Positions 4,244 through 14,547 are shown, numbered from the stretch's first letter. The stretch is DNA of 39,597 bases from a virus (IMGVR_UViG_3300021138_000075:1-39597); one strand, 5' to 3'. Notes: generated by a model from the sequence alone, not told the origin. Program-made: numbers and translations.

Positions 4244-4402
4244 ATGAAAAATTGGTTTAAAAGTTGGAGCCCTTTGATTATTTCGGTCATTTCATTGTTG
4301 ACCGCGTTTATTGCTACTTTCACCGGTAACGGCGATATCGGCACTGGTTACTTCTTGGCATTTGCTGGCTGGGCTTATATCTTTGCCAAGTCAAATGACT
4401 GA
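4244..4402 (+). CDS. Small two-helix membrane protein (52 aa)
   Basis: A 52-aa ORF with GAGGAA just before the ATG. It contains two hydrophobic stretches, about residues 10-26 (PLIISVISLLTAFIATF) and 35-47, separated by a short Gly-rich loop (GNGDIGTG). That predicts a hairpin membrane protein. It overlaps the next start as ATGACTGA. A role in the host inner membrane is likely; whether it is a holin, an inhibitor or something else cannot be told. Confidence 0.6.
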   Translation: MKNWFKSWSPLIISVISLLTAFIATFTGNGDIGTGYFLAFAGWAYIFAKSND

Positions 4403-5129
4403 TACTGCACATTTCTTTATTGATGGCACTCTATTAAAAATTGACTTGCCATTCAATTCTAAATTTATCAAAAAGTTTAGAAAAGATATTCACAATACCT
4501 TTGTCTGGGATAAAGTAGACAAAGTATACCAAACTAAGTTTAGCACCTATGCATTAAAGAACGCAGTTAGGGTATGTAGCGATTTCTTTGCAGTAACTTA
4601 TTGCAGTGAACTCAAGCCTGTTATGGATTTTTTAAACACTAACTCGTTTGGGACATTTGAACCTACGCTAGTAAAAGTAAACGATCAATACTATGTTTCG
4701 GGGATCAATGAACCGCTCTACCAGCAACTAGTAGATATTGAACTAAATGATTCAATGGAAGTCTTGTTTAAGTGTTCTCTATTGGGAATCAAAGTAGATA
4801 AAGAATTACTATCTGATCCGGCTAAAGAATTTGCAGCAACTAGAATCTATACAACAAGTATAGATAACTTAGATTTGGCTGATTGGATCAAGCAATTAAA
4901 TGTAAATAGTATTTGCTCTTCTAATCGATTTTCAAGAGTTAGTGCAAAACATAAATTTAACCTTCAGGAATTTGTGAAAAATAATAATATAGAAATTAGA
5001 AACCTGAATAGCGAGAAAGAAACATTTACAGAACCATATTTTTATATTGGTTCTGTACTTGAACACAACACATCGGCTATTGGAAGGTCTAGCGCGGCTA
5101 AGATAATTTTGTTAAGGTTGATGCCATAA
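4395..5129 (+). CDS. Hypothetical protein with possible HARP-like N-terminus
   Basis: A 244-aa protein. I chose the ATG at 4395 because it overlaps the upstream stop; the open frame extends further but without a better start. Residues about 1-70 (FFIDGTLLKIDLPF, WDKVDKVYQTKF) have the spacing of HARP-type domains, which accompany SF2 annealing helicases. The rest is unrecognised. It ends one base before the uvsW N-terminal ORF, so it may work with that helicase. Both domain and partnership are inference. Confidence 0.6.
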   Translation: MTDTAHFFIDGTLLKIDLPFNSKFIKKFRKDIHNTFVWDKVDKVYQTKFSTYALKNAVRVCSDFFAVTYCSELKPVMDFLNTNSFGTFEPTLVKVNDQYYVSGINEPLYQQLVDIELNDSMEVLFKCSLLGIKVDKELLSDPAKEFAATRIYTTSIDNLDLADWIKQLNVNSICSSNRFSRVSAKHKFNLQEFVKNNNIEIRNLNSEKETFTEPYFYIGSVLEHNTSAIGRSSAAKIILLRLMP

Positions 5130-5130
5130 T

Positions 5131-5694
5131 ATGTCAAAATGTAAAATCATCATTAAAGATGAAGTTAATGTAAAGATCGAGGGTCTTGAACTAGACGCTA
5201 GACGAGCATTAATGAAGAAGTTTGAGTTTGAGATACCTGGTGCTAGGTATCTTCCTGCGGTTAGATTGGGCAGATGGAACGGCAAAATCAGTTATTTTAG
5301 TTTAGCAGGTAGTTCGTACATCAATCTGTTAGATAAGATCATTCCAGTATTAGAAGACTATGGATATGATATTGAACTAGAAGATTTGCGAACCTACACT
5401 ACTACTTTTAATTTTACTCAAGTAACTACTGATTCCTTTGCTGATCGTACTTGGCCAAAAGGGCATCCTGTAGAGGGACAACCAATTACGCTAAGAGACT
5501 ATCAAGTAGAAATTGTCAATAACTTCTTGGCTAACCCACAGTGCTTACAAGAAATTGCTACGGGTGCAGGTAAATGTGTTACAAAGAATACTAAACTAAA
5601 AATTATATTAGACGAAAATACTCCTTTTGGTAAATTTATGATAAGTAAATTACAACAGGAGCAGGATAACAATGTTACAAATCATAATAAATAA
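5131..5694 (+). CDS. uvsW: UvsW helicase N-terminal part fused to N-intein 1
   Basis: A 187-aa ORF. Residues 1-148 are the UvsW N-terminus: a small substrate-binding domain, then the Q-motif-like region (LRDYQVEIV) and the start of Walker A, ending ATGAGK. Residue 149 is Cys (codon 5575-5577), the first residue of an intein whose block A reads CVTKNTKLKII. The ORF stops 39 residues into the intein. The rest of Walker A (Thr) is found at 7090 in another ORF. T4 UvsW is an SF2 helicase that unwinds D-loops and R-loops and drives fork regression; the product needs trans-splicing to be active. The stop overlaps the endonuclease gene. Confidence 0.9.
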   Translation: MSKCKIIIKDEVNVKIEGLELDARRALMKKFEFEIPGARYLPAVRLGRWNGKISYFSLAGSSYINLLDKIIPVLEDYGYDIELEDLRTYTTTFNFTQVTTDSFADRTWPKGHPVEGQPITLRDYQVEIVNNFLANPQCLQEIATGAGKCVTKNTKLKIILDENTPFGKFMISKLQQEQDNNVTNHNK

Positions 5695-7089
5695 TTTTAA
5701 AGAAAAAAGTTGGCTACGAATGTGTACCCTATACGGAATCCATAAATGGGAATTACTTGCAGCTATTAAAAAACCAGTATATCCCAGTAGATGTTTGATT
5801 AACAAAGCTCCGCCGATTACTAATACATCTTGTCGTAGCTGTGGTGCAGTGTTTGATCTTGGTATATACAAAGGTAATTATATTGCGTATAAAACCTGTC
5901 AATGTGGCTACGACGGGACAAATTTGATGACCCTGCAAAAATTGCAATGTTTTTACACACAAGAAGATACTAGCATCATTATTAACTTGGTAAATTTAGC
6001 CAAAAGAAAAGGATTGCCGAATACTAATGAATATTGGATTAACCGTGGAAATACCTTAGAGGAAGCAGCTAAAAAAGTTTCTAGTATACAACAAAAGCGA
6101 TCTGCTAAATCACCTGCATCGCAAAAAGGCGCCCGTGGCTATTCTGTTAGGACAATTGAGTATTGGATTAAAAAGGGATATTGCCACGAAATGGCAGTCA
6201 TTAAAGTAAAAGAATCTCAAACTCAAAATGGGCTAATTTGGTATATTAAAAAATACGGGGAAGAAAAAGGACAAGCCAAGTTTAATGCGCGTGTTAATAA
6301 ATGGAATTTACAAATGGCTAAATTGCATCGCGGCGTTAGCCAAGTAGCAACTGAATTATTTACAGCGATTGATCCGCTAAGGATTGGCAAATTTGGTGAC
6401 GAAGAAACAACGGTTCGAGCCAAAAATAAAATATACCGAGTAGATTATTATCGAAAAGAATCCCGAAAAATAATTGAATTTAACGGAGAGTACTGGCATG
6501 CTGATTCAAAAAAGTACTTATCATCTGACCTTATTAAAGGTAAAACAGCACAACAAATATGGGATAATGACGTAAAAAAACTAGATGCACTAAGAAAGAA
6601 TGGATTTGCTGTTTTGGTAATTAAAGAAGCAGATTATTATGCAGATAAGGATAAGGTAATCAATGAGTGCCGAGAATTTTTGAAATGAAAGAAGTAATAA
6701 CTACATTTGGTCAATTATCTCAGTATATTGAAGAATTTACATGTCAACAATTAGAAAACTGCAAAGAAGTTGACATATCAAATTTTGGAATTAGTATACC
6801 TACGCCTAATGGGCTACAACAAGTTAATTATTTTATTAAAAAAGAAAATTTGTCCGGAGTAGAATTAACAATCAATAATAAAATCTTAGGATGTGCGGAA
6901 AACCACATTCTACTTAGTGCAGGCTGTGATATATTTGCCAAAGATTTGACTATAGGAGATTCGATTGATACTATTAATGGACCGGCAGAAATAACAAATA
7001 AAACATCAATTAAATGTGATGATTATTATGATGTTAGCATCAATGCCCCTCATCTTTATTACGACGGAGATGGAATTATTCATCATAAT
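5575..7089 (+). other. Split intein 1 in UvsW Walker A (two halves, endonuclease ORF between)
   Basis: The N-half is 5575-5691 (39 aa, starting with catalytic Cys). The C-half is 6685-7089 (135 aa, ending in His-Asn before extein Thr, GIIHHN|T). The split falls between block A and block B, because the block-B TxxH-like segment (CAENHILLS) is in the C-half. That is the rare atypical N-terminal split also known from metagenomic phage TerL inteins. Joining the exteins restores GAGKT. No endonuclease domain lies within the intein itself; a separate ORF sits in the gap. Confidence 0.85.
5672..6688 (+). CDS. Vsr-like homing endonuclease in the split-intein gap
   Basis: A 338-aa ORF, in a different frame, placed exactly between the two intein halves. 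A zinc-ribbon-like segment comes first (CRSCGAVF near 49-56, CQCG near 76). Two repeats follow (EYWINRG, EYWIKKG), resembling DNA-binding helices of phage homing enzymes. The C-terminus has a Vsr/EDxHD-type nuclease core: RVDYYRK, IIEFNGEYWHAD, IWDNDVKKLDALRKNGFAVLVI. This is the type known from 'fractured genes' interrupted by split inteins in marine phages. AGGAGCAGGA lies upstream of the ATG. Its TGA overlaps the ATG of the next ORF, so the C-intein is probably translated by coupling. Confidence 0.8.
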   Translation: MLQIIINNFKEKSWLRMCTLYGIHKWELLAAIKKPVYPSRCLINKAPPITNTSCRSCGAVFDLGIYKGNYIAYKTCQCGYDGTNLMTLQKLQCFYTQEDTSIIINLVNLAKRKGLPNTNEYWINRGNTLEEAAKKVSSIQQKRSAKSPASQKGARGYSVRTIEYWIKKGYCHEMAVIKVKESQTQNGLIWYIKKYGEEKGQAKFNARVNKWNLQMAKLHRGVSQVATELFTAIDPLRIGKFGDEETTVRAKNKIYRVDYYRKESRKIIEFNGEYWHADSKKYLSSDLIKGKTAQQIWDNDVKKLDALRKNGFAVLVIKEADYYADKDKVINECREFLK

Positions 7090-7662
7090 ACAATCATGAC
7101 TGCGGCTCTTAGCAAAAGCGTAGAAAAGTATGGTAGGTCAATTGTGATTGTACCAAACAAAAGCTTGGTAACGCAGACTGAAGAAGATTATGTCAATCTT
7201 GGATTAGATGTTGGTGTTTATTTCGGTGATCGTAAAGAATACAATAAAACTCACACTATCTGTACTTGGCAATCATTGAACAATCTACTAAAGAACACTA
7301 AAGCTGGCGAAGCTGATATACCTATTAACGAATTTATTGATAATGTTGTATGTGTCATGGTTGACGAGTGTTTTGACGGAGAAACGAGGGTGTTGACCAC
7401 GCACGGATATGTTCCTATCAAGAACATTAAATCCGGTGATAAAATAATTAATTATTGCGAACAGACCAAAATCTTCAAAGAAGATACGGTGATAAAACAG
7501 CACCATAATCTTACCGTATCTTCCCTTGAAAAAATGTATGAGCTAGAATTTGATAATGGAAGTGTAATCAAGGTTACTGGAAATCATAAGTTTCTAACAA
7601 CTCTAGGATGGTGCCGAGCAGATGAACTTACTGAAAATCATGAAATCGTGAACAAATCATAA
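6685..7662 (+). CDS. uvsW: C-intein 1 + UvsW middle segment + N-intein 2
   Basis: A 325-aa ORF in three parts. Residues 1-135 are the C-half of intein 1 (ends IIHHN). Residues 136-228 are UvsW extein, from Walker A Thr (TIMTAALS) through motif Ia (IVIVPNKSL) to VMVDE, the first half of the DECH box. Residues 229-325 are the N-half of intein 2, starting CFDGETRVLTTHGYVP and containing block B VTGNHKFLT. I used the ATG at 6685, which overlaps the endonuclease TGA, instead of the GTG at 6667. Both ends need protein trans-splicing, so this middle piece must undergo two splicing reactions. I know of few natural proteins arranged like this. Confidence 0.88.
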   Translation: MKEVITTFGQLSQYIEEFTCQQLENCKEVDISNFGISIPTPNGLQQVNYFIKKENLSGVELTINNKILGCAENHILLSAGCDIFAKDLTIGDSIDTINGPAEITNKTSIKCDDYYDVSINAPHLYYDGDGIIHHNTIMTAALSKSVEKYGRSIVIVPNKSLVTQTEEDYVNLGLDVGVYFGDRKEYNKTHTICTWQSLNNLLKNTKAGEADIPINEFIDNVVCVMVDECFDGETRVLTTHGYVPIKNIKSGDKIINYCEQTKIFKEDTVIKQHHNLTVSSLEKMYELEFDNGSVIKVTGNHKFLTTLGWCRADELTENHEIVNKS

Positions 7663-7821
7663 ATACACATCTTTCTAAATTTGATGAAAAAACCGCAATA
7701 AAGATAAGGAAGTTGTATGAAATTAGTAAGAAAAACTGAAATAGATAAACCTGATGAAGTGTTCAATCTTCACATTGAAAATGATCATAACTATGTGGTC
7801 GATGGTGCAGTAGTATCTAAT
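7369..7821 (+). other. Split intein 2 in UvsW DECH box (canonical split)
   Basis: The N-half is 7369-7659 (97 aa, Cys1) and the C-half is 7717-7821 (35 aa). They are separated by only 57 nt, which hold a stop, no endonuclease and a ribosome site. The split lies at the usual endonuclease-insertion site. Removal joins VMVDE to CHMAKAD, restoring the DECH motif. The C-half ends VVSN|C, with Ser in place of the usual penultimate His. Confidence 0.88.
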
Positions 7822-8553
7822 TGTCATATGGCAAAAGCAGATGCCCTAAAAACTCTATTGACGGGCGTGTTCAGTCAAGTACCCATCAGATGGGGACTAA
7901 CAGGAACTATCCCTAAAGCCGAGTATGAAAGGACCTCATTACTAGTAAGTTTAGGTCCTGTTATCAATAAACTTGCTGCAAGCGAGTTGCAAGATTTGGG
8001 AGTCTTAGCCAAATGCCATGTAAACATTGTACAATTAAAGGATGAAGTCGAGTTCTCAAACTATCAAAGCGAATTAAAGCACCTTCTTGAAAACGAAGAG
8101 AGACTAGACAAGATAGCTGAACTTATTAGTAAGATCAACGAAACGGGCAATACTTTGGTCTTAGTTGACAGAGTAAATGCTGGCAAAGAATTGGTTACTA
8201 GACTTCCTGATTCGGTTTTTGTAAGTGGTGAAACTAAACTAACAGAAAGAAAAGAAGAATACGATGAAATCAAAACAAGCACAAATAAAATATTGGTTGC
8301 TACTTATGGCGTTGCTGCTGTTGGAATTAATCTTCCTAGGATCTTTAATTTGGTTCTTATTGAGCCCGGTAAATCATTTGTTAGAGTTATTCAAAGCATT
8401 GGTCGTGGCATAAGAAAAGCAGAAGATAAAGACCACGTTGAAATTTGGGATATCACTTCAAGTTGTAAATTTGCCAAGCGTCACTTGACACAGCGTAAGG
8501 CATACTATAAAGAGGCTAACTATCCTTTCAGTATGGAAAAATTAAGTTATTGA
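7717..8553 (+). CDS. uvsW: C-intein 2 + UvsW C-terminal helicase domain
   Basis: A 278-aa ORF. Residues 1-35 are the C-half of intein 2 (MKLVRKTEID ... VVDGAVVSN). Residue 36 is Cys of DECH. The 243-residue extein has motif III (GLTGT), motif V (VATYGVAAVGINLP) and motif VI (QSIGRGIRK), the second RecA-like domain of an SF2 helicase. AAGGAAG lies 4 nt before the ATG, so this piece has its own ribosome site. The spliced UvsW would be 148 + 93 + 243 = 484 residues, close to T4 UvsW (about 500). The stop overlaps the -35 of the next promoter. Confidence 0.9.
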   Translation: MKLVRKTEIDKPDEVFNLHIENDHNYVVDGAVVSNCHMAKADALKTLLTGVFSQVPIRWGLTGTIPKAEYERTSLLVSLGPVINKLAASELQDLGVLAKCHVNIVQLKDEVEFSNYQSELKHLLENEERLDKIAELISKINETGNTLVLVDRVNAGKELVTRLPDSVFVSGETKLTERKEEYDEIKTSTNKILVATYGVAAVGINLPRIFNLVLIEPGKSFVRVIQSIGRGIRKAEDKDHVEIWDITSSCKFAKRHLTQRKAYYKEANYPFSMEKLSY

Positions 8554-8578
8554 TTCTTTGATTAATAGGTGCTATAAT
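8550..8578 (+). promoter_or_regulatory. Sigma70-like promoter, predicted leaderless start
   Basis: TTGATT at 8550-8555, 17-nt spacer, TATAAT at 8573-8578, then exactly 6 nt before the ATG at 8585. Transcription would begin at or within a base of the start codon. Confidence 0.7.
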
Positions 8579-8584
8579 ATCGAT

Positions 8585-9085
8585 ATGAAAATTTTAACAT
8601 TAGAAAATACCAGTTACAATCTAGAAACTCTTCCCGAAGAAATTGATGATTTGCGATTTGCCATTTTAGACAACTCTACTCCGGCAAATGTAGACTATCA
8701 TTATATTCCCTTAATCTTTCTAGAATCATTTAATGCACCTGCACTAGTGCTTAAGATAGGATCTTTTAAGATCAAAATGCCACTAGATTGGCAGATTTTA
8801 ATTGGTGAAAACGATCATGGTGACTTAGAAACACTACCCCTTACTAGTTTGAATGATAGGGGATTTAGTGCGTTTGAGTTTAACCCACTATCGTCTTTCT
8901 CTCCAACTTTCTTGCCCATTGAGATTTTAGACATATATAATGAAGTTACTTGGTATGCTCCTAGGCTAAGAAACGGGCAGTTTTTGTGCGTTCCATTAGA
9001 AGACACGCCCAAGCCCAAGTGTGTTTACTTTGTCAAAGAGATTAGCAGAAATTGCGAAATTGTAGATTACAACTTAGTTTTTTAA
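8585..9085 (+). CDS. Hypothetical phage protein (166 aa)
   Basis: A 166-aa acidic protein rich in Leu, Pro and Phe, with no motif that I can name. I placed the start at the ATG at 8585, which sits 6 nt behind a clear -10 TATAAT, rather than the earlier alternative. No ribosome site fits between promoter and start. It opens a run of tightly spaced genes leading to the clamp-loader-like gene, so a replication or transcription role is possible. That is inference only. Confidence 0.65.
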   Translation: MKILTLENTSYNLETLPEEIDDLRFAILDNSTPANVDYHYIPLIFLESFNAPALVLKIGSFKIKMPLDWQILIGENDHGDLETLPLTSLNDRGFSAFEFNPLSSFSPTFLPIEILDIYNEVTWYAPRLRNGQFLCVPLEDTPKPKCVYFVKEISRNCEIVDYNLVF

Positions 9086-9094
9086 GGAGACTAT

Positions 9095-9409
9095 ATGTTT
9101 AAGTGGTTTGATAACTGGTTCTATAACCAATGTAAGAAGGCTTGGGACAGAAAACATGTACCCGCTATAGTGTTGAATGATGAGTTAGATACCTGCACTC
9201 AACCCCGACCTGATATTAATCTATCAGGTACTGGAGTATCATTTACTGTTTATAATGCTAGCGGCGGATATGTCGTTCAGCATTATGTTTTGATCCAAGA
9301 TAAAAGAGGAATTGTAGAATCTGTGCCCAGACTGACTATTGTAACTAGAGATCAAGATTTGGGAGAAGTACTTGCTCATATTATGACTTTAGAAGCACTT
9401 AAAAACTAA
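9095..9409 (+). CDS. Hypothetical protein (104 aa)
   Basis: A 104-aa protein with AAGGAG 5 nt upstream of the ATG. The aromatic N-terminus (MFKWFDNWFYNQCKKAWDR) is amphipathic; the rest alternates strands and turns. I recognise no family. Its stop overlaps the ATG of the clamp-loader-like gene (TAATG), suggesting they are translated together. Confidence 0.6.
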   Translation: MFKWFDNWFYNQCKKAWDRKHVPAIVLNDELDTCTQPRPDINLSGTGVSFTVYNASGGYVVQHYVLIQDKRGIVESVPRLTIVTRDQDLGEVLAHIMTLEALKN

Positions 9410-10002
9410 TGGCAAAAGCAAAAACAAAAGCACCAGAAGATGAAAAATTAGAACAAGTAGAATTTAGTTTGTTCGAAGCCATTGCAGCTTGTGATCGTAA
9501 AGACTATGGCTGGTGGGATCGTCTTACCCCAGAACAGCAAAAGAAGTTTCATCCTTATGTAATGCTTACTTTTCTAAGTTCAGTCAAGTCTAGCAGGGCT
9601 ATGCAAGAGTTTCATGTGCTTAGCGTCAATGAAATGGCTAACAAGTACGCACTACACGAAGTAGTTAGCAAGCATCCAAAACTGCAATGGCTAATGCTGT
9701 GTGCTGCTACGTTAGGTAAAGGCAAGCAGTATCATCAGTGGATCCCAAACTTGCGTCCTAAAGTAACTAAGTTACAAGAACCCGCTACAGTAAAAGAAAT
9801 TAGCGAATACTTTAGTAAAGTATATCCAGATGCTGACGAAAATTTGATAAAAGAAATTTCAGAAAATTTTGTCAAACAGCATAAAAGAAAAGTGTATCTT
9901 TCAGATAGATTTCCTAACTTAAAGATTGACGATATAGATTTATTAAACAACTTGGTGACTGATGAAGAAATTGAAAAGTACGAAAGAGACCTCGGAAACT
10001 AA
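9409..10002 (+). CDS. 62: Clamp-loader small subunit, gp62-like
   Basis: A 197-aa helical protein of the right length for T4 gp62 (187 aa). The best-matching stretch is a run of helices with ANKYALHEVVSKHPKLQWL, then a Gly-Lys-rich turn (GKGKQYHQWIP) that resembles RGKRYGKWAKL in T4 gp62 as I remember it. gp62 with gp44 loads the gp45 sliding clamp for replication and late transcription. The other clamp-loader subunits are not in this window. The N-terminus is an Ala/Lys-rich tail. The call rests on pattern and context, not on an alignment. Confidence 0.6.
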   Translation: MAKAKTKAPEDEKLEQVEFSLFEAIAACDRKDYGWWDRLTPEQQKKFHPYVMLTFLSSVKSSRAMQEFHVLSVNEMANKYALHEVVSKHPKLQWLMLCAATLGKGKQYHQWIPNLRPKVTKLQEPATVKEISEYFSKVYPDADENLIKEISENFVKQHKRKVYLSDRFPNLKIDDIDLLNNLVTDEEIEKYERDLGN

Positions 10003-10672
10003 GAACAGTTGCGAGTTTTGCAATCGTAGTTTTATTAGAGAGTCTACCTTAATCAATCATTTGTGTGAATACAAGCACAGATGGATGAATAAGGACCATC
10101 ATGGTAACCGTGTAGGCTTTCAGTCTTGGTTACAGTTTTTCAATAAAAGCAGCCCCAATCACAAGACTAGAACATATTTAGACTTTATCAAAAGTTCTTA
10201 CTATACAGCATTTGCTAAGTTTGGCAGTTACTGCGTAGATGCTAGAGTAATCAACATTCCTAGATATGTAGATTGGCTGCTTAAGAATCAAATTAGAATC
10301 GATTCTTGGAATACAGATACAAATTACACTAAGTTTATTATCGCTTATCTCAAGGATGAAGATCCACTAGACGCTATTGCCAGAAGCATTGAAACAACTA
10401 TGAGATTGGCAGAAGCAGAAAAGTTACAAACTAAAGATTGTTTGCGTTACGGCAATCGTAATCGTCTGTGCTATGAAATCACAGCGGGCAGAATTAGTCC
10501 ATGGATGCTTTATCATAGTGAGAGTGGTAAAGAGTTTTTGTCTAGTCTAGATGAAATACAAGTTAAACTAGTAGTCGATTATATTCAGCCAGAGCAGTGG
10601 GCTATAAAATTCAATCGTGATCAAAATATAGTGCAGCAAGTCAAAGAACTATTGAGCCTGGCTGGCTATTAA
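9962..10672 (+). CDS. C2H2-type zinc-finger phage protein
   Basis: A 236-aa protein beginning inside the end of the gp62-like gene (41-bp overlap, different frame). Residues about 17-40 contain CEFCNRSFIRESTLINHLC and a later His, a C2H2-like zinc finger. The rest is a helical domain rich in aromatic and charged residues with no known signature. The finger suggests binding to nucleic acid or to a replication partner. The only early ATG is at 9962, so the overlap is likely genuine. It is followed by TAATG coupling to the next gene. Confidence 0.65.
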   Translation: MKKLKSTKETSETKNSCEFCNRSFIRESTLINHLCEYKHRWMNKDHHGNRVGFQSWLQFFNKSSPNHKTRTYLDFIKSSYYTAFAKFGSYCVDARVINIPRYVDWLLKNQIRIDSWNTDTNYTKFIIAYLKDEDPLDAIARSIETTMRLAEAEKLQTKDCLRYGNRNRLCYEITAGRISPWMLYHSESGKEFLSSLDEIQVKLVVDYIQPEQWAIKFNRDQNIVQQVKELLSLAGY

Positions 10673-10896
10673 TGACTTACTACAACTACTACGACGGGGT
10701 AGATTGGGAAAACACTAAGCCTGGATGGTACGAAGCGTCTGTAAATCTAAAACATTATGATTCAGTAATGGAATGGTTACATAAAAATATAGGAAAATAC
10801 GAAAGACATACCAGATGGCATATTTTTGATGAAACTATGAAATTTAAGTTTAGATATGAAAAAGATTGTATGATGTTTATATTACGTTGGTCATAA
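10672..10896 (+). CDS. Small protein, 'F-LRW' C-terminal family
   Basis: A 74-aa protein, Tyr/Trp-rich, ending FKFRYEKDCMMFILRWS. The pattern of aromatic and charged residues just before a final LRW/LKY recurs in the small proteins at 10896, 14584, 14808 and 15348, so these look like diverged paralogues. Start and stop overlap both neighbours by 1 nt or so (TAATG). Unknown function. Confidence 0.6.
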   Translation: MTYYNYYDGVDWENTKPGWYEASVNLKHYDSVMEWLHKNIGKYERHTRWHIFDETMKFKFRYEKDCMMFILRWS

Positions 10897-11156
10897 TGGC
10901 TAACATACCACTCGACTTTCAAGACTACGATGACGATGATCCTAATATTGAATTTAGACGATCTAGGCAAAAGTATTGGTCTGCTCTAAAAGAACTTAAG
11001 CGGGAATATTCTGACGAGGATAATATTTCTTTTATCCAGTGGGTAGAAGAAAAATATGGATTTATAATCACCCTAGAGAACGGGATAGGGATTTCCGACG
11101 TTTATACGGTGGTAAATGAAGCAAAATTCGTATTTTTCAAGCTAAAGTATCTGTAA
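10896..11156 (+). CDS. Small protein, 'F-LRW' C-terminal family
   Basis: An 86-aa protein with an acidic N-terminus (DYDDDDPNIEF) and C-terminus AKFVFFKLKYL, matching the end pattern of the neighbouring 10672 gene. I placed the start at the ATG at 10896, overlapping the upstream TAA by 1 nt, instead of an earlier in-frame start at 10866. It closes the run that began at 8585. Function unknown. Confidence 0.6.
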   Translation: MANIPLDFQDYDDDDPNIEFRRSRQKYWSALKELKREYSDEDNISFIQWVEEKYGFIITLENGIGISDVYTVVNEAKFVFFKLKYL

Positions 11157-11184
11157 GTCATTGATTCTATTGGGAATATAATAG

Positions 11185-11213
11185 TTGACAACAGGCTGAC
11201 TAAATAGTATAGT
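11185..11213 (+). promoter_or_regulatory. Strong sigma70-like promoter for nadM
   Basis: Perfect TTGACA at 11185-11190, 17-nt spacer and TATAGT at 11208-11213. The predicted start near 11220 places the hairpin at 11222-11244 at the very 5' end of the mRNA. Confidence 0.8.
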
Positions 11214-11221
11214 ATTAAACA

Positions 11222-11244
11222 TAGAGAAGGGTAGACCATCTCTA
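11222..11244 (+). promoter_or_regulatory. 5'-terminal stem-loop in nadM leader
   Basis: TAGAGA (11222-11227) pairs with TCTCTA (11239-11244) around the loop AGGGTAGACCA. The same 11-nt loop with a different stem precedes nadV at 13126-13146, so the stem covaries. Followed by AAGGAGTAGATCCA before the ATG in both leaders. Confidence 0.75.
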
Positions 11245-11269
11245 ACACAAAAACAAGGAGTAGATCCAG

Positions 11270-12328
11270 ATGAAAAAGAACAAATCTCAGGGTTGGACCG
11301 ATCACGGTGTCGAAGCAAGACGCTATGACCTAGCAGTGGTAATTGGTCGCTTTCAGCCCTTTCACAATGCCCATGAAGAACTGATTGAACGAGCCAAAAA
11401 GCACAGCGACAACGTCCTGGTACTGATTGGTAGTTCATTTATTGCCCGCAACATCAAGAATCCGTTCACTTATGACGAGCGAGTTCAGATGCTGCCCAAA
11501 GGTGTAGTGTCTGCACCTATCGAGGACGAACTTTACAATGACCAGCATTGGGTAGCCCGCGTTCAACAGGAAGTTGAAAACGAGCTGAGCCAACTCTATG
11601 ACGATATCAGCGAATGCACCGTTTGCATCGTGGGTCATGAGAAAGACGATAGCAGTCAGTATCTCCGCTGGTTCCCTCAGTATACATTTGAAGAGGTGCC
11701 CAGTCTTGCAGTGCTGGACAGCACCCGAATCCGCGACATTCTGTTCGGGAACGAAATGATTCCAGCAGATGTTATGCCCCTCCGAGTAGAGAACTTTATC
11801 CGCGAATGGCGTAAGTCTAATTCGGAAATCTACAAGAACCTGTGTGATGAACACAAGTTCATCAAAGATTACAAGCAGATGTGGAGCGCGGCGCCCTTTC
11901 AGCCCGTGTTCGTTACTACTGATGCAGTAGTCATCTGTCAGGGCCACATTCTTTTGATCAAGCGTCGCATGGCCCCGGGTAAGGGTCTTTGGGCTCTGCC
12001 CGGAGGCTTCTTGGGTACTAACGAAAAGATTGAAGATTCTATGATCCGCGAGTTGGAAGAAGAGACTCGCATCAAGGTCAGCAGCGACATGCTGCGAGCC
12101 TGCACTAAGGGTAATCATGTATTCGATCATCCCCGCCGTAGCGAACGGGGCCGGACGATCACTCATGCTTATCTGGTTGTCTTGCAAGAGCGCACTCTTC
12201 CTAAAGTGCGTGGATCAGACGATGCCGAACGCGCTAAGTGGTTTCCGCTTTCGGAGTTTTATGACATGACAGACCAGCTCTATGAGGATCATTGGAGCAT
12301 AGCCAGTCATCTTATAAACCGTTGTTAG
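11270..12328 (+). CDS. nadM: Bifunctional NMN adenylyltransferase / Nudix hydrolase
   Basis: A 352-aa protein. The N-terminal nucleotidyltransferase has GRFQPFHNAH (GxFxPxHxxH ATP-binding motif) near residues 26-35 and DSTRIRDIL near 152, the ISTxxR-like motif. The C-terminal domain is Nudix: GGFLGTNEKIEDSMIREL followed by EEET. The fusion is the NadM-Nudix type; the first half makes NAD from NMN and ATP, the second typically cleaves ADP-ribose or related nucleotides. With nadV it completes NAD synthesis from nicotinamide, as in the vibriophage KVP40 pathway. AAGGAG lies 9 nt before the ATG. The gene avoids TTA/CTA/TCA codons for about 250 codons. Confidence 0.92.
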   Translation: MKKNKSQGWTDHGVEARRYDLAVVIGRFQPFHNAHEELIERAKKHSDNVLVLIGSSFIARNIKNPFTYDERVQMLPKGVVSAPIEDELYNDQHWVARVQQEVENELSQLYDDISECTVCIVGHEKDDSSQYLRWFPQYTFEEVPSLAVLDSTRIRDILFGNEMIPADVMPLRVENFIREWRKSNSEIYKNLCDEHKFIKDYKQMWSAAPFQPVFVTTDAVVICQGHILLIKRRMAPGKGLWALPGGFLGTNEKIEDSMIRELEEETRIKVSSDMLRACTKGNHVFDHPRRSERGRTITHAYLVVLQERTLPKVRGSDDAERAKWFPLSEFYDMTDQLYEDHWSIASHLINRC

Positions 12329-13061
12329 ATTTTAGGCCCCAATTCCAAGTACCGTCATCATTATAGACCCGTTTACGAAGTTTAGATTTTGCTGAATATT
12401 CGGGTCTTTTTTGTCCTTTTATCTTGGGTCTACTGCCGGTTCTTTTTGCATTACAAGCCCTACTACAACATCTATTCTCTTTCTTAGGATGATGCAACAA
12501 TTCGTTTTTCACAAATTTACATTGACATACGGGGCATTGATATTCTCTATCTTCTCGAGGCATGGCATTTTTCTTACCCATAATTCGGGCTTGTACGGAA
12601 GAAAGTTTTTTATGTTCTTTAGTTCCGATCCATGTATCAAGACCTAACTTAACCCGTTCTTTACGTTCGGCCCATCGTGCTTTCATTTTTTCACGGGTTT
12701 TTTCTGAAACTGTATGCCCTGAAAGTATTCGACTCATCTTTTCTTTGTGTTCTGTAGAATGTTTTTTACCTTTGAATCCGTGTGTAACGTGTGGGGCCGA
12801 TGACATGTTATACCAATCTCGGCTGTTAACCGCATCAAATTCCGAAATAAAATATTCTTCTAAGAAGTTTAAATCAGCCTTAGAAAAAGCAAAGGCTATT
12901 ATTTCTCGCTCAAAGTTTACAATTCCGTATTTTCGTATTGCGCGATTGATAGCGCGACCAGAACCAAAGTATATAACATCAACTGGCTTACGCGATTGGC
13001 CAACGTACCGTTTTCCATTTATTCGGTTAGTAGTAATGTATATAAATCCAAAAGGCTTCAT
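12312..13061 (-). CDS. GIY-YIG homing endonuclease
   Basis: A 249-aa minus-strand protein. The N-terminus has the GIY-YIG core: GFIYITTNRINGKRYVGQS, YFGSG, and FEREIIAF, with an acidic LEEYFI further on. The middle has NUMOD3-like DNA-binding repeats (GKKHSTEHKEKMS, SEKTREKMKARW). A four-Cys cluster (CPVC ... CCSRAC) follows. It is a free-standing mobile endonuclease wedged between nadM and nadV on the opposite strand; its 3' end overlaps the nadM stop by 17 bp. A perfect late-promoter octamer lies 5 nt before its ATG. Confidence 0.88.
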   Translation of the reverse strand: MKPFGFIYITTNRINGKRYVGQSRKPVDVIYFGSGRAINRAIRKYGIVNFEREIIAFAFSKADLNFLEEYFISEFDAVNSRDWYNMSSAPHVTHGFKGKKHSTEHKEKMSRILSGHTVSEKTREKMKARWAERKERVKLGLDTWIGTKEHKKLSSVQARIMGKKNAMPREDREYQCPVCQCKFVKNELLHHPKKENRCCSRACNAKRTGSRPKIKGQKRPEYSAKSKLRKRVYNDDGTWNWGLKSNNGL

Positions 13062-13066
13062 ACAAA

Positions 13067-13074
13067 TATTTATA
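13067..13074 (-). promoter_or_regulatory. T4-type late promoter, leaderless
   Basis: TATAAATA on the minus strand, the T4 late consensus, 5 nt before the ATG of the GIY-YIG gene. The expected start site falls at the ATG. Confidence 0.65.
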
Positions 13075-13089
13075 CATCTAAGAAAAAGG

Positions 13090-13117
13090 TTGACTAAATA
13101 GATTTATAGTATATAAT
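13090..13117 (+). promoter_or_regulatory. Sigma70-like promoter for nadV
   Basis: TTGACT at 13090-13095, 16-nt spacer, TATAAT at 13112-13117. The predicted start, about 13124-13126, again puts a hairpin (13126-13146) at the 5' end. Confidence 0.75.
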
Positions 13118-13173: not shown

Positions 13174-14547
13174 ATGAACATTATTCTCAATACAGATAGT
13201 TATAAGACCAGCCATTTCGTTCAGTACCCAGAAGGTACTACTAACGTGTTCTCATACATTGAGTCGCGTGGTGGCGAATACGACCATACACTGTTTTTTG
13301 GCTTGCAGGCATTCATCAAAGAATATCTGCTCAAGCCCATTACCAAATCGGACATTGATGAAGCTGAGGAAGTGTATCAGCTTCACGGAGTTCCCTTCAA
13401 CCGTCAGGGTTGGGAGTACATTCTGTATCATCACAATGGGCTGCTTCCGCTCAAGATCAAGGCAGTGAAAGAGGGTACGATTGTCCCCACTCATAATGTT
13501 TTGGTCACGGTGGAAAATACAGACCCCAATCTTCCGTGGTTGACCAGTTACGTGGAGACTGCTCTGCTCCGCGCAGTGTGGTACCCAACTACTGTGGCAA
13601 CTATCAGCCACAGCATTCGCAAGATCATCGCCGAGCGTCTTAAGATCAGTGCAGACAGCACCGACGGTCTGGACTTTAAACTTCATGACTTTGGTGCGCG
13701 TGGTGTCAGCAGCCTCGAAAGTGCAGGACTTGGTGGACTTGCACACCTTGTGAACTTCAAGGGTACTGATAACGTTCCGGCACTGATGTATGCTCGCAAG
13801 TACTATGGCGAGCGTATGGCGGGCTTCTCTATCCCAGCAGCAGAACACAGCACGATCACCAGCTGGGGCCGCGAGAACGAAGAGGCTGCTTACGCTAACA
13901 TGCTCAAGCAGTTTGCTAAGCCCGGCGCACTGGTCGCAGTAGTTTCGGACAGCTATGACTTGTTCAACGCTGTAGAAAATGTCTGGGGTGGTACGCTTCG
14001 CCAGCAAGTGATCGACAGTGGTGCGACCGTTGTGATTCGCCCAGACTCGGGTAATCCAGCAGACATTGTTGCTCATACTGCGGTCTTGTTGGACAAGCAG
14101 TTTGGCAGCACTGTTAACGGGCAGGGATTCAAGGTCCTCAATCATGTTCGCATCATTCAGGGTGACGGCATCAACGAGCAGAGCATCAGGGACATTCTTG
14201 CCCGTTTGCAGATTCTGGGCTTTAGCGCAGACAATGTAGCATTCGGTATGGGTGGTGCTCTGCTTCAGCACATGAATCGTGACACGCAGAAGTTTGCAAT
14301 GAAGGCTTCGGCTGCTAAGGTCAACGGTGAGTGGAGGGACGTTTTCAAAGATCCGGTCACGGACTTTGGCAAGCGCAGCAAAAAGGGTAAGTTGGATTTG
14401 TTCTACAATCACATGAATAATACTTACTCGACTGCCCGCGAAAACGAGGATCATGTTCACTTTCGTATGCTGGAAACGGTCTATGAAAATGGTAAACTGA
14501 TTCGCAATCAGTCGTTGACAGAGATCAGGGAAATTGCTAAACTGTAA
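13174..14547 (+). CDS. nadV: Nicotinamide phosphoribosyltransferase
   Basis: A 457-aa protein of the usual NAMPT/NadV length. It converts nicotinamide and PRPP to NMN. Motifs: HDFGARGVSSLESAGLGG with AHLVNFKGTD, the PAAEHSTITSWG segment with the catalytic His, VVIRPDSGNP (PRPP binding), QGDGI and FGMGG. These are the strands and loops of the type II phosphoribosyltransferase barrel. NMN then passes to NadM. The gene has the same leader as nadM and avoids TTA/CTA/TCA codons over about 400 codons, unlike the surrounding genes. The GIY-YIG gene separates it from nadM. Confidence 0.95.
   Translation: MNIILNTDSYKTSHFVQYPEGTTNVFSYIESRGGEYDHTLFFGLQAFIKEYLLKPITKSDIDEAEEVYQLHGVPFNRQGWEYILYHHNGLLPLKIKAVKEGTIVPTHNVLVTVENTDPNLPWLTSYVETALLRAVWYPTTVATISHSIRKIIAERLKISADSTDGLDFKLHDFGARGVSSLESAGLGGLAHLVNFKGTDNVPALMYARKYYGERMAGFSIPAAEHSTITSWGRENEEAAYANMLKQFAKPGALVAVVSDSYDLFNAVENVWGGTLRQQVIDSGATVVIRPDSGNPADIVAHTAVLLDKQFGSTVNGQGFKVLNHVRIIQGDGINEQSIRDILARLQILGFSADNVAFGMGGALLQHMNRDTQKFAMKASAAKVNGEWRDVFKDPVTDFGKRSKKGKLDLFYNHMNNTYSTARENEDHVHFRMLETVYENGKLIRNQSLTEIREIAKL

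Follow-up and report, generated by a model that had tools for sequence, protein, structure and literature searches.

A phage uvsW helicase gene probably broken at both ATPase motifs by two unrelated split inteins

Introduction

The systems closest to the one described here are phage genes in pieces. In the so-called fractured genes, reportedly described by Dassa et al. in 2009, a phage gene of DNA metabolism is broken by a split intein, and a free-standing Vsr-like endonuclease is encoded between the halves. Among the split inteins, those of DnaE end in SN and are followed by Cys (SN/C). The characterised atypically split inteins have a short N-terminal intein half (IntN) of 15-37 amino acids (aa) (PMC13014065). 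In this paper we analyse a gene for the helicase UvsW of a freshwater phage in the viral DNA stretch IMGVR_UViG_3300021138_000075:1-39597; the whole stretch of 39,597 nucleotides (nt) is called the window, and all positions refer to it. The gene lies in three open reading frames (ORFs), namely ORF N (5131-5694), ORF M (starting at 6685) and ORF C (7717-8553), and has two inserts, intein A in the Walker A motif after GAGK and intein B in the DECH box after VDE. On the sequences compared, we consider it very probable that two unrelated split inteins homed independently into this one phage gene, at its two most conserved ATPase motifs, leaving three ORFs whose products would be spliced in trans.

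Sequences and methods

Viral contigs and phage records that were compared with the window carry L-numbers. Occupancy counts come from a query-biased retrieval of contigs and are not to be read as frequencies. Double-split contigs were grouped at 90 % nucleotide identity, and the extein tree comprised 90 sequences. The catalytic residues of intein B were scored over 87 occupied loci. A profile of the endonuclease at site A was built from 14 relatives and compared with solved structures, and the putative endonuclease remnant at site B was compared with 8 relatives, with 2000 shuffles per comparison. The AlphaFold model of ORF M was used solely for a fold search.

Results

Joining the three exteins gave a protein of 484 aa without a gap, which matched the T4 UvsW structure 2oca over residues 14-475 (E 3.4e-28) and the phage helicase family phrog_16 (E 6e-82). 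UvsW proteins and helicases of reference phages aligned with it end to end at 50-56 %, and the best uninterrupted UvsW from a viral contig, which lacks both inserts, was 90 % identical. In the 80 intein-free contigs the exteins abut at both junctions with zero extra bases. By its sequence the assembled protein is a full-length UvsW, with the N-terminal domain, two RecA-like domains, Walker A and DExH. The match to PF21241 was slightly under its cut-off and those to PF04851 and PF00271 were above theirs; the whole ORF C matched phrog_9690 (7.9e-54). The features of the locus are as follows.

5131..5574, + strand: N-extein of UvsW, 148 aa, ending ATGAGK (Walker A); UvsW_N PF21241, 3.8e-5
5575..5694 (5691 without the stop), + strand: IntN of intein A (IntN1), 39 aa, Cys1, atypical short N-fragment, with stop; sequence, ratio of nonsynonymous to synonymous substitution rates (dN/dS) against L003
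5672..6688, + strand: free-standing homing endonuclease ORF, 338 aa, Vsr/EDxHD-type domain at the C-terminus; profile, AlphaFold2 (AF2), Foldseek
6685..7089, + strand: C-terminal half (IntC) of intein A (IntC1), 135 aa, ending HHN, followed by Thr at +1; VidaL 6vgv match, conserved CA..H and HHN, dN/dS
7090..7368, + strand: middle extein, 93 aa, TIMTAALS...VMVDE, with an IntC before and an IntN after it; ResIII PF04851
7369..7662 (7659 without the stop), + strand: IntN of intein B (IntN2), 97 aa, Cys1, TGNH block B, with stop; PF14890, 43.8 bits in ORF M
7665..7739, + strand: putative endonuclease remnant, C-terminal 24 codons, THLSKFDEKTAIKIRKLYEISKKN, then a stop; 19/24 residues shared with the intact ORF of L008
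7717..7821, + strand: IntC of intein B (IntC2), 35 aa, ending VVSN, followed by Cys at +1; conserved residues
7822..8553 (8550 without the stop), + strand: C-extein of UvsW, 243 aa, CHMAKAD..., with stop; Helicase_C PF00271, 9e-9

A sequence-only reading of the stretch had proposed that UvsW lies in three ORFs and that Walker A and the DECH box each hold a split intein, the two differing in the way they are split. This is borne out by homology and catalytic residues, by alleles free of inteins, by purifying selection and by contigs of independent origin, and the positions it gave for ORFs, junctions and intein ends (GAGK 5574, HHN 7089, VMVDE 7368, VVSN 7821) were correct. Its 484-aa UvsW of near-T4 length is the protein matched to 2oca and phrog_16 above, and the one continuous UvsW that it expected is seen in the gap-free alignment with the 80 uninterrupted contigs. 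It had overlooked the endonuclease ORF at 5672-6688 and the remnant at 7665-7739.

Insert A is predicted to be an atypically split intein of the VidaL type, with halves of 39 and 135 aa. IntC1 matched the VidaL intein 6vgv by sequence (E 1.8e-6), and in a Foldseek search with the model of ORF M VidaL was the top match (9.5e-6), the best 50 matches all being inteins or intein-like domains; there was no Pfam match to intein A. The residues CA..H and HHN were invariant across divergent loci, and Cys1, H74, HHN and Thr at +1 were present in the loci examined. The homologues have an IntN of 27-41 aa and an IntC of about 135 aa. Compared with L003, dN/dS was 0.23 for IntN1, 0.10 for IntC1 and 0.10 for the C-extein, indicating purifying selection. 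A resemblance between the IntN1 tail (TPFGKF...) and the IntC1 head (TTFGQL...) was considered as a duplication marking an overlap at the split point and was rejected, the scores being no better than those of shuffles in 7 of 8 loci.

Insert B appears to be a canonically split intein of 97 + 35 aa. PF14890 was matched above its cut-off and PF07591 was also matched. The residues expected of an intein (Cys1, TxxH in block B, C-terminal Asn and Cys at +1) were all found; over the occupied loci Cys1 and the terminal Asn were present in 87/87 and TxNH in block B in 81/87. Every occupied locus has Cys at +1, and empty sites have Val (81), Ala (2) or Cys (3). A strict rule that Cys occurs at +1 only with the intein was dropped, since the intein-free L171, L172 and L182 have DECH. 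For IntN2, dN/dS was 0.07 (L003 against L004). In both inserts a real stop and a restart place the halves in different ORFs, ORF C being preceded by AAGGAAG, which from its sequence resembles a ribosome-binding site (Shine-Dalgarno), and this split layout is kept in divergent lineages. The sequence-only reading had looked to intein profiles and folds for a check, and both inserts were recognised in this way (intein B with PF14890, intein A with VidaL by sequence and by Foldseek). Half-to-half comparison of inteins A and B gave no detectable similarity.

Between the halves of intein A lies the free-standing Vsr/EDxHD-type ORF, the arrangement of a fractured gene. It shares 23 nt with the end of ORF N and 4 nt (ATGA) with the start of ORF M, and its dN/dS against L003 was 0.18. 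With the 14-member profile, Vsr (1odg) was matched at E 0.0025 and I-Bth0305I (3r3p), a homing endonuclease of the EDxHD type, at E 0.11; a search of the PDB with the single sequence had given chance matches alone, and the profile was needed. The AF2 model had a predicted local distance difference test (pLDDT) score of 82, and Foldseek placed it with 3r3p (probability 1.00) and Vsr (0.99), the matches to these two enzymes spanning probabilities of 0.97-1.00 at E-values of 0.03-0.06. The enzyme would be expected to cut the empty uvsW allele. In L046 and L050 (4332-5993) the N-extein, IntN1 and endonuclease form one ORF of 553 aa, and the near-identical L005 has a stop after IntN1; this is a live transition between fused and free endonuclease.

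At site B the gap between the intein halves is 54 nt in the window, and relatives keep an intact endonuclease ORF of about 300 aa there. Among relatives the endonuclease is intact, degraded, reduced to a remnant or absent. In 7 of the 8 comparisons of positions 7665-7739 with the relatives' endonuclease, 0/2000 shuffles reached the observed score. Intein B therefore appears to have lost its endonuclease, because the remaining piece matches the C-terminus of the relatives' intact enzyme.

The contigs fetched had neither intein (80), B only (64), A only (6, one contig truncated), a contiguous LAGLIDADG intein at A together with split B (4) or both split inteins (20); the four states neither, A only, B only and both are thus all found. 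The 20 double-split contigs fell into 9 groups, 8 of which show both halves of intein A, L021 and L025 being truncated at the 5' end. The sequence-only reading had called the arrangement unusual and had proposed a search of metagenomes for it; the word is a fair description, but double-split UvsW recurs in these 9 groups of freshwater phage contigs. On the extein tree the window was sister to the empty allele L084 with support 100. On strongly supported branches, a minimum of four changes was needed for the doubly occupied state in which the gap at B is large enough for an endonuclease, and two for the one without such a gap, so that double occupancy appears to have arisen repeatedly. The contiguous LAGLIDADG maxi-inteins of L049, L051, L076 and L079 (the last starting with Ala) lie in the same Walker A site. 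They were considered as contiguous ancestors of intein A and rejected; as they do not match it, they are best read as separate invasions. One contig, IMGVR_UViG_3300033064_008235 (L176 + L194), carries a double-split UvsW together with a Walker-A-split UvsX, the two proteins being recombination partners.

Both inteins show signs of movement. Intein B of the window is 66 % (IntN) and 52 % (IntC) identical to that of Salmonella phage S16, whereas the UvsW exteins are 25 % identical; because of this difference between 66 % and 25 %, intein B is concluded to move horizontally. In S16 (L082 3162-5888) and Proteus phage PM2 (L083 3030-5762) the intein splits UvsW at DECH with a nuclease-like ORF between the halves, and the annotation reads helicase, hypothetical protein, helicase, leaving the intein unannotated. 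L183 and L184 are 99.3 % identical over 7.6 kb up to site B, where one has intein B and the flank is 81 % identical; this marks a recombination breakpoint at the insertion point. Over the first 216 nt of the middle extein the synonymous divergence from L084 was 0.32, compared with 0.69 in the N-extein and 0.91 immediately to the right of site B, which weakly suggests that conversion from outside took place twice, separately, and left the middle untouched. The intein A family was also found in Walker A of UvsX (L194 and the cultured Pseudomonas phage MIJ3) and of gp41/DnaB-like helicases (L195, L196 and Vibrio phage VmeM-32). Precise empty alleles (80) and horizontal spread, as expected of homing elements, were both found.

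In MIJ3 (L201, LR588166.1; 763-1008, 1061-2494, 2498-3769) an atypical intein resembling VidaL splits UvsX at Walker A, with an IntN of 17 aa (CLPETAKVKIRLSKKQS) and a 477-aa endonuclease ORF between the halves. The UvsX intein is matched also in PA5oct, Callisto, Cassandra and others; the accessible part of the MIJ3 paper mentions a PolB split intein alone. The cultured Vibrio phage vB_VmeM-32 (L202; 1538-2236, 2339-3475, 3447-4613; 652-1203) has several fractured genes, its gp41-like helicase being split at Walker A by an atypical split intein with an endonuclease between and its UvsX split elsewhere.

Two contigs from other metagenomes cover the locus. L001 equals window positions 4654-9850 at 98.4 % with zero indels, and L002, from a third metagenome, equals 6799-13095 at 99.9 %; they agree base for base and without an indel through the stops that each covers. 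The window shows 82 differences from L001, about 50 of them clustered at 4745-4962, in the ORF at 4311-5129 directly upstream of uvsW, which had no family match. A homing-endonuclease-like ORF (12315-13061, - strand; phrog_314, 7e-33) lies beside a nicotinamide phosphoribosyltransferase gene (13174-14547). Megablast of positions 1-24000 against phage records gave no match. Promoter-like sites numbered 26 compared with 15.8 in shuffles and no terminator was found; no conclusion is based on this.

Discussion

The anatomy of the locus and the conserved catalytic residues make it most likely that trans-splicing of both inteins restores the helicase. Intein A would have arrived with the endonuclease ORF now between its halves, and intein B with an endonuclease of its own, later deleted to a remnant. 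After translation IntN1 would pair with IntC1 and IntN2 with IntC2, and splicing of both in trans would give a scarless UvsW of 484 aa, for which three polypeptides would have to meet. The middle polypeptide would have the order IntC-extein-IntN, the topology used to cyclise proteins, and cross-pairing would cyclise the middle piece. Since two inteins of one type would have this effect, double occupancy should be viable with orthogonal inteins only, as found, and orthogonality of A and B is presumably required. We give even chances to the further proposal that this is a natural three-polypeptide protein whose two orthogonal split inteins are kept from cross-reacting by selection (cyclisation being the alternative), with the intein A endonuclease possibly co-converting the endonuclease-less intein B about 280 bp away.

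Some points weigh against the reading of two independently homed, trans-splicing inteins. ORF M gave a poor AlphaFold model (pLDDT 48), the sequence match of the endonuclease was weak (E 0.0025), though its fold match was clear, and IntN1, at 39 aa and with a variable tail, slightly exceeds the range of the characterised atypical IntN fragments. The repeated gain on the extein tree may partly be recombination.

The three pieces could instead form a regulatory gate, a delay or gating of UvsW having been suggested by the sequence-only reading. On this view active UvsW would be present only late in infection, since three polypeptides and two rounds of splicing are required to make it. Insertion at Walker A and DECH would inactivate the unspliced pieces, and in T4 UvsW acts late and shuts off replication from origins. 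A role of UvsW in inactivating origin initiation is also cited in PMC3322345. Such a gate is nevertheless very unlikely. Orthologues in close relatives have A, B, both or neither, the nearest relative having neither; homing elements generally insert at conserved ATPase motifs, UvsX and gp41-like helicases having the intein A family in their own Walker A; and site A itself holds unrelated LAGLIDADG inteins in L049, L076 and L079. Because close relatives do without one or both inteins, gating of UvsW is unsupported, and the patchy occurrence fits selfish insertion better. The arrangement was most likely left by two selfish homing elements and did not evolve as a control device, the simplest account being that a homing parasite settled in each of the two stretches of codons in which the ATPase is least mutable.

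It could also be supposed that the pieces stay unspliced, UvsW being a non-covalent complex of fragments held together by the intein halves, or being dispensable and decaying. Genes in pieces that work without splicing are known, such as a phage ribonucleotide reductase split by a homing endonuclease (as cited in PMC3322345). We hold this to be highly improbable: Cys1, the terminal Asn and the +1 Cys are strictly conserved at B and HHN at A, dN/dS is low for exteins, IntN1, endonuclease, IntC1 and IntN2, and the frame is kept in 20 contigs, which would be unexpected under decay. The sequence-only reading had also allowed for stops that are assembly errors, i.e. false stops in a contiguous inteined gene. 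The metagenomic origin invites this suspicion, and small indels do occur, L046 and L050 being fused where L005 has a stop. An artefact is, however, scarcely conceivable. Assembly error is excluded because L001 and L002, from other metagenomes, carry identical ORFs over the stops they cover; the ATGA overlaps are clean, ORF C has its Shine-Dalgarno sequence and the split is conserved in divergent lineages.

The related loci make up an unusually complete natural series, in which the site is empty, holds a contiguous intein, or holds a split one whose endonuclease is present, decayed or missing. It allows tests of how split inteins originated, of the homing cycle and of orthogonality between inteins. 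Experiments are feasible now, because both elements are represented in cultured phages, intein B in the Salmonella phages of the S16 group and the VidaL-type element in Pseudomonas jumbo phages (UvsX).

Compared with the known fractured genes, intein A fits fully and intein B fits in relatives; the difference is that one gene is here broken twice by unrelated split inteins, so that the middle polypeptide has an IntC in front and an IntN behind. Intein A resembles VidaL (6vgv) in sequence, fold, near-N-terminal split and the CAxNH of block B. The IntN of VidaL has 16 aa (PMC13014065) compared with 39 aa in intein A, and the host gene is here UvsW; the MIJ3 UvsX intein, with its short IntN, looks nearer to VidaL than intein A does. 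Intein B is like the canonical split inteins gp41-1 and DnaE in its halves of about 97 + 35 aa, TxNH, DHNY and SN/C end, but it sits in the DECH of UvsW and the copy in the window is without an endonuclease. Several inteins per phage gene, one of them holding an ORF, are likewise found in nrdA and phoH of Campylobacter phage IBB_35 (PMC3322345); in its nrdA, with three inteins and an ORF inside one, no two split inteins or three polypeptides are reported. A literature search, outside which Dassa 2009 fell, returned no paper that reports a split intein in UvsW or UvsX, and none that describes a natural protein in three pieces joined via two split inteins. In the engineered three-piece ligation of triple-vector dystrophin, as described in PMC11271493, the middle fragment likewise lies between the IntC and IntN of two inteins; that system is engineered, whereas the UvsW case is natural. 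Inteins that are split, also atypically, and fractured genes that contain a Vsr-like endonuclease were already known. The double-split UvsW would be a rare natural three-piece assembly and a natural counterpart, contained in one gene and seen again in several groups of phages, of the orthogonal split inteins used by engineers.

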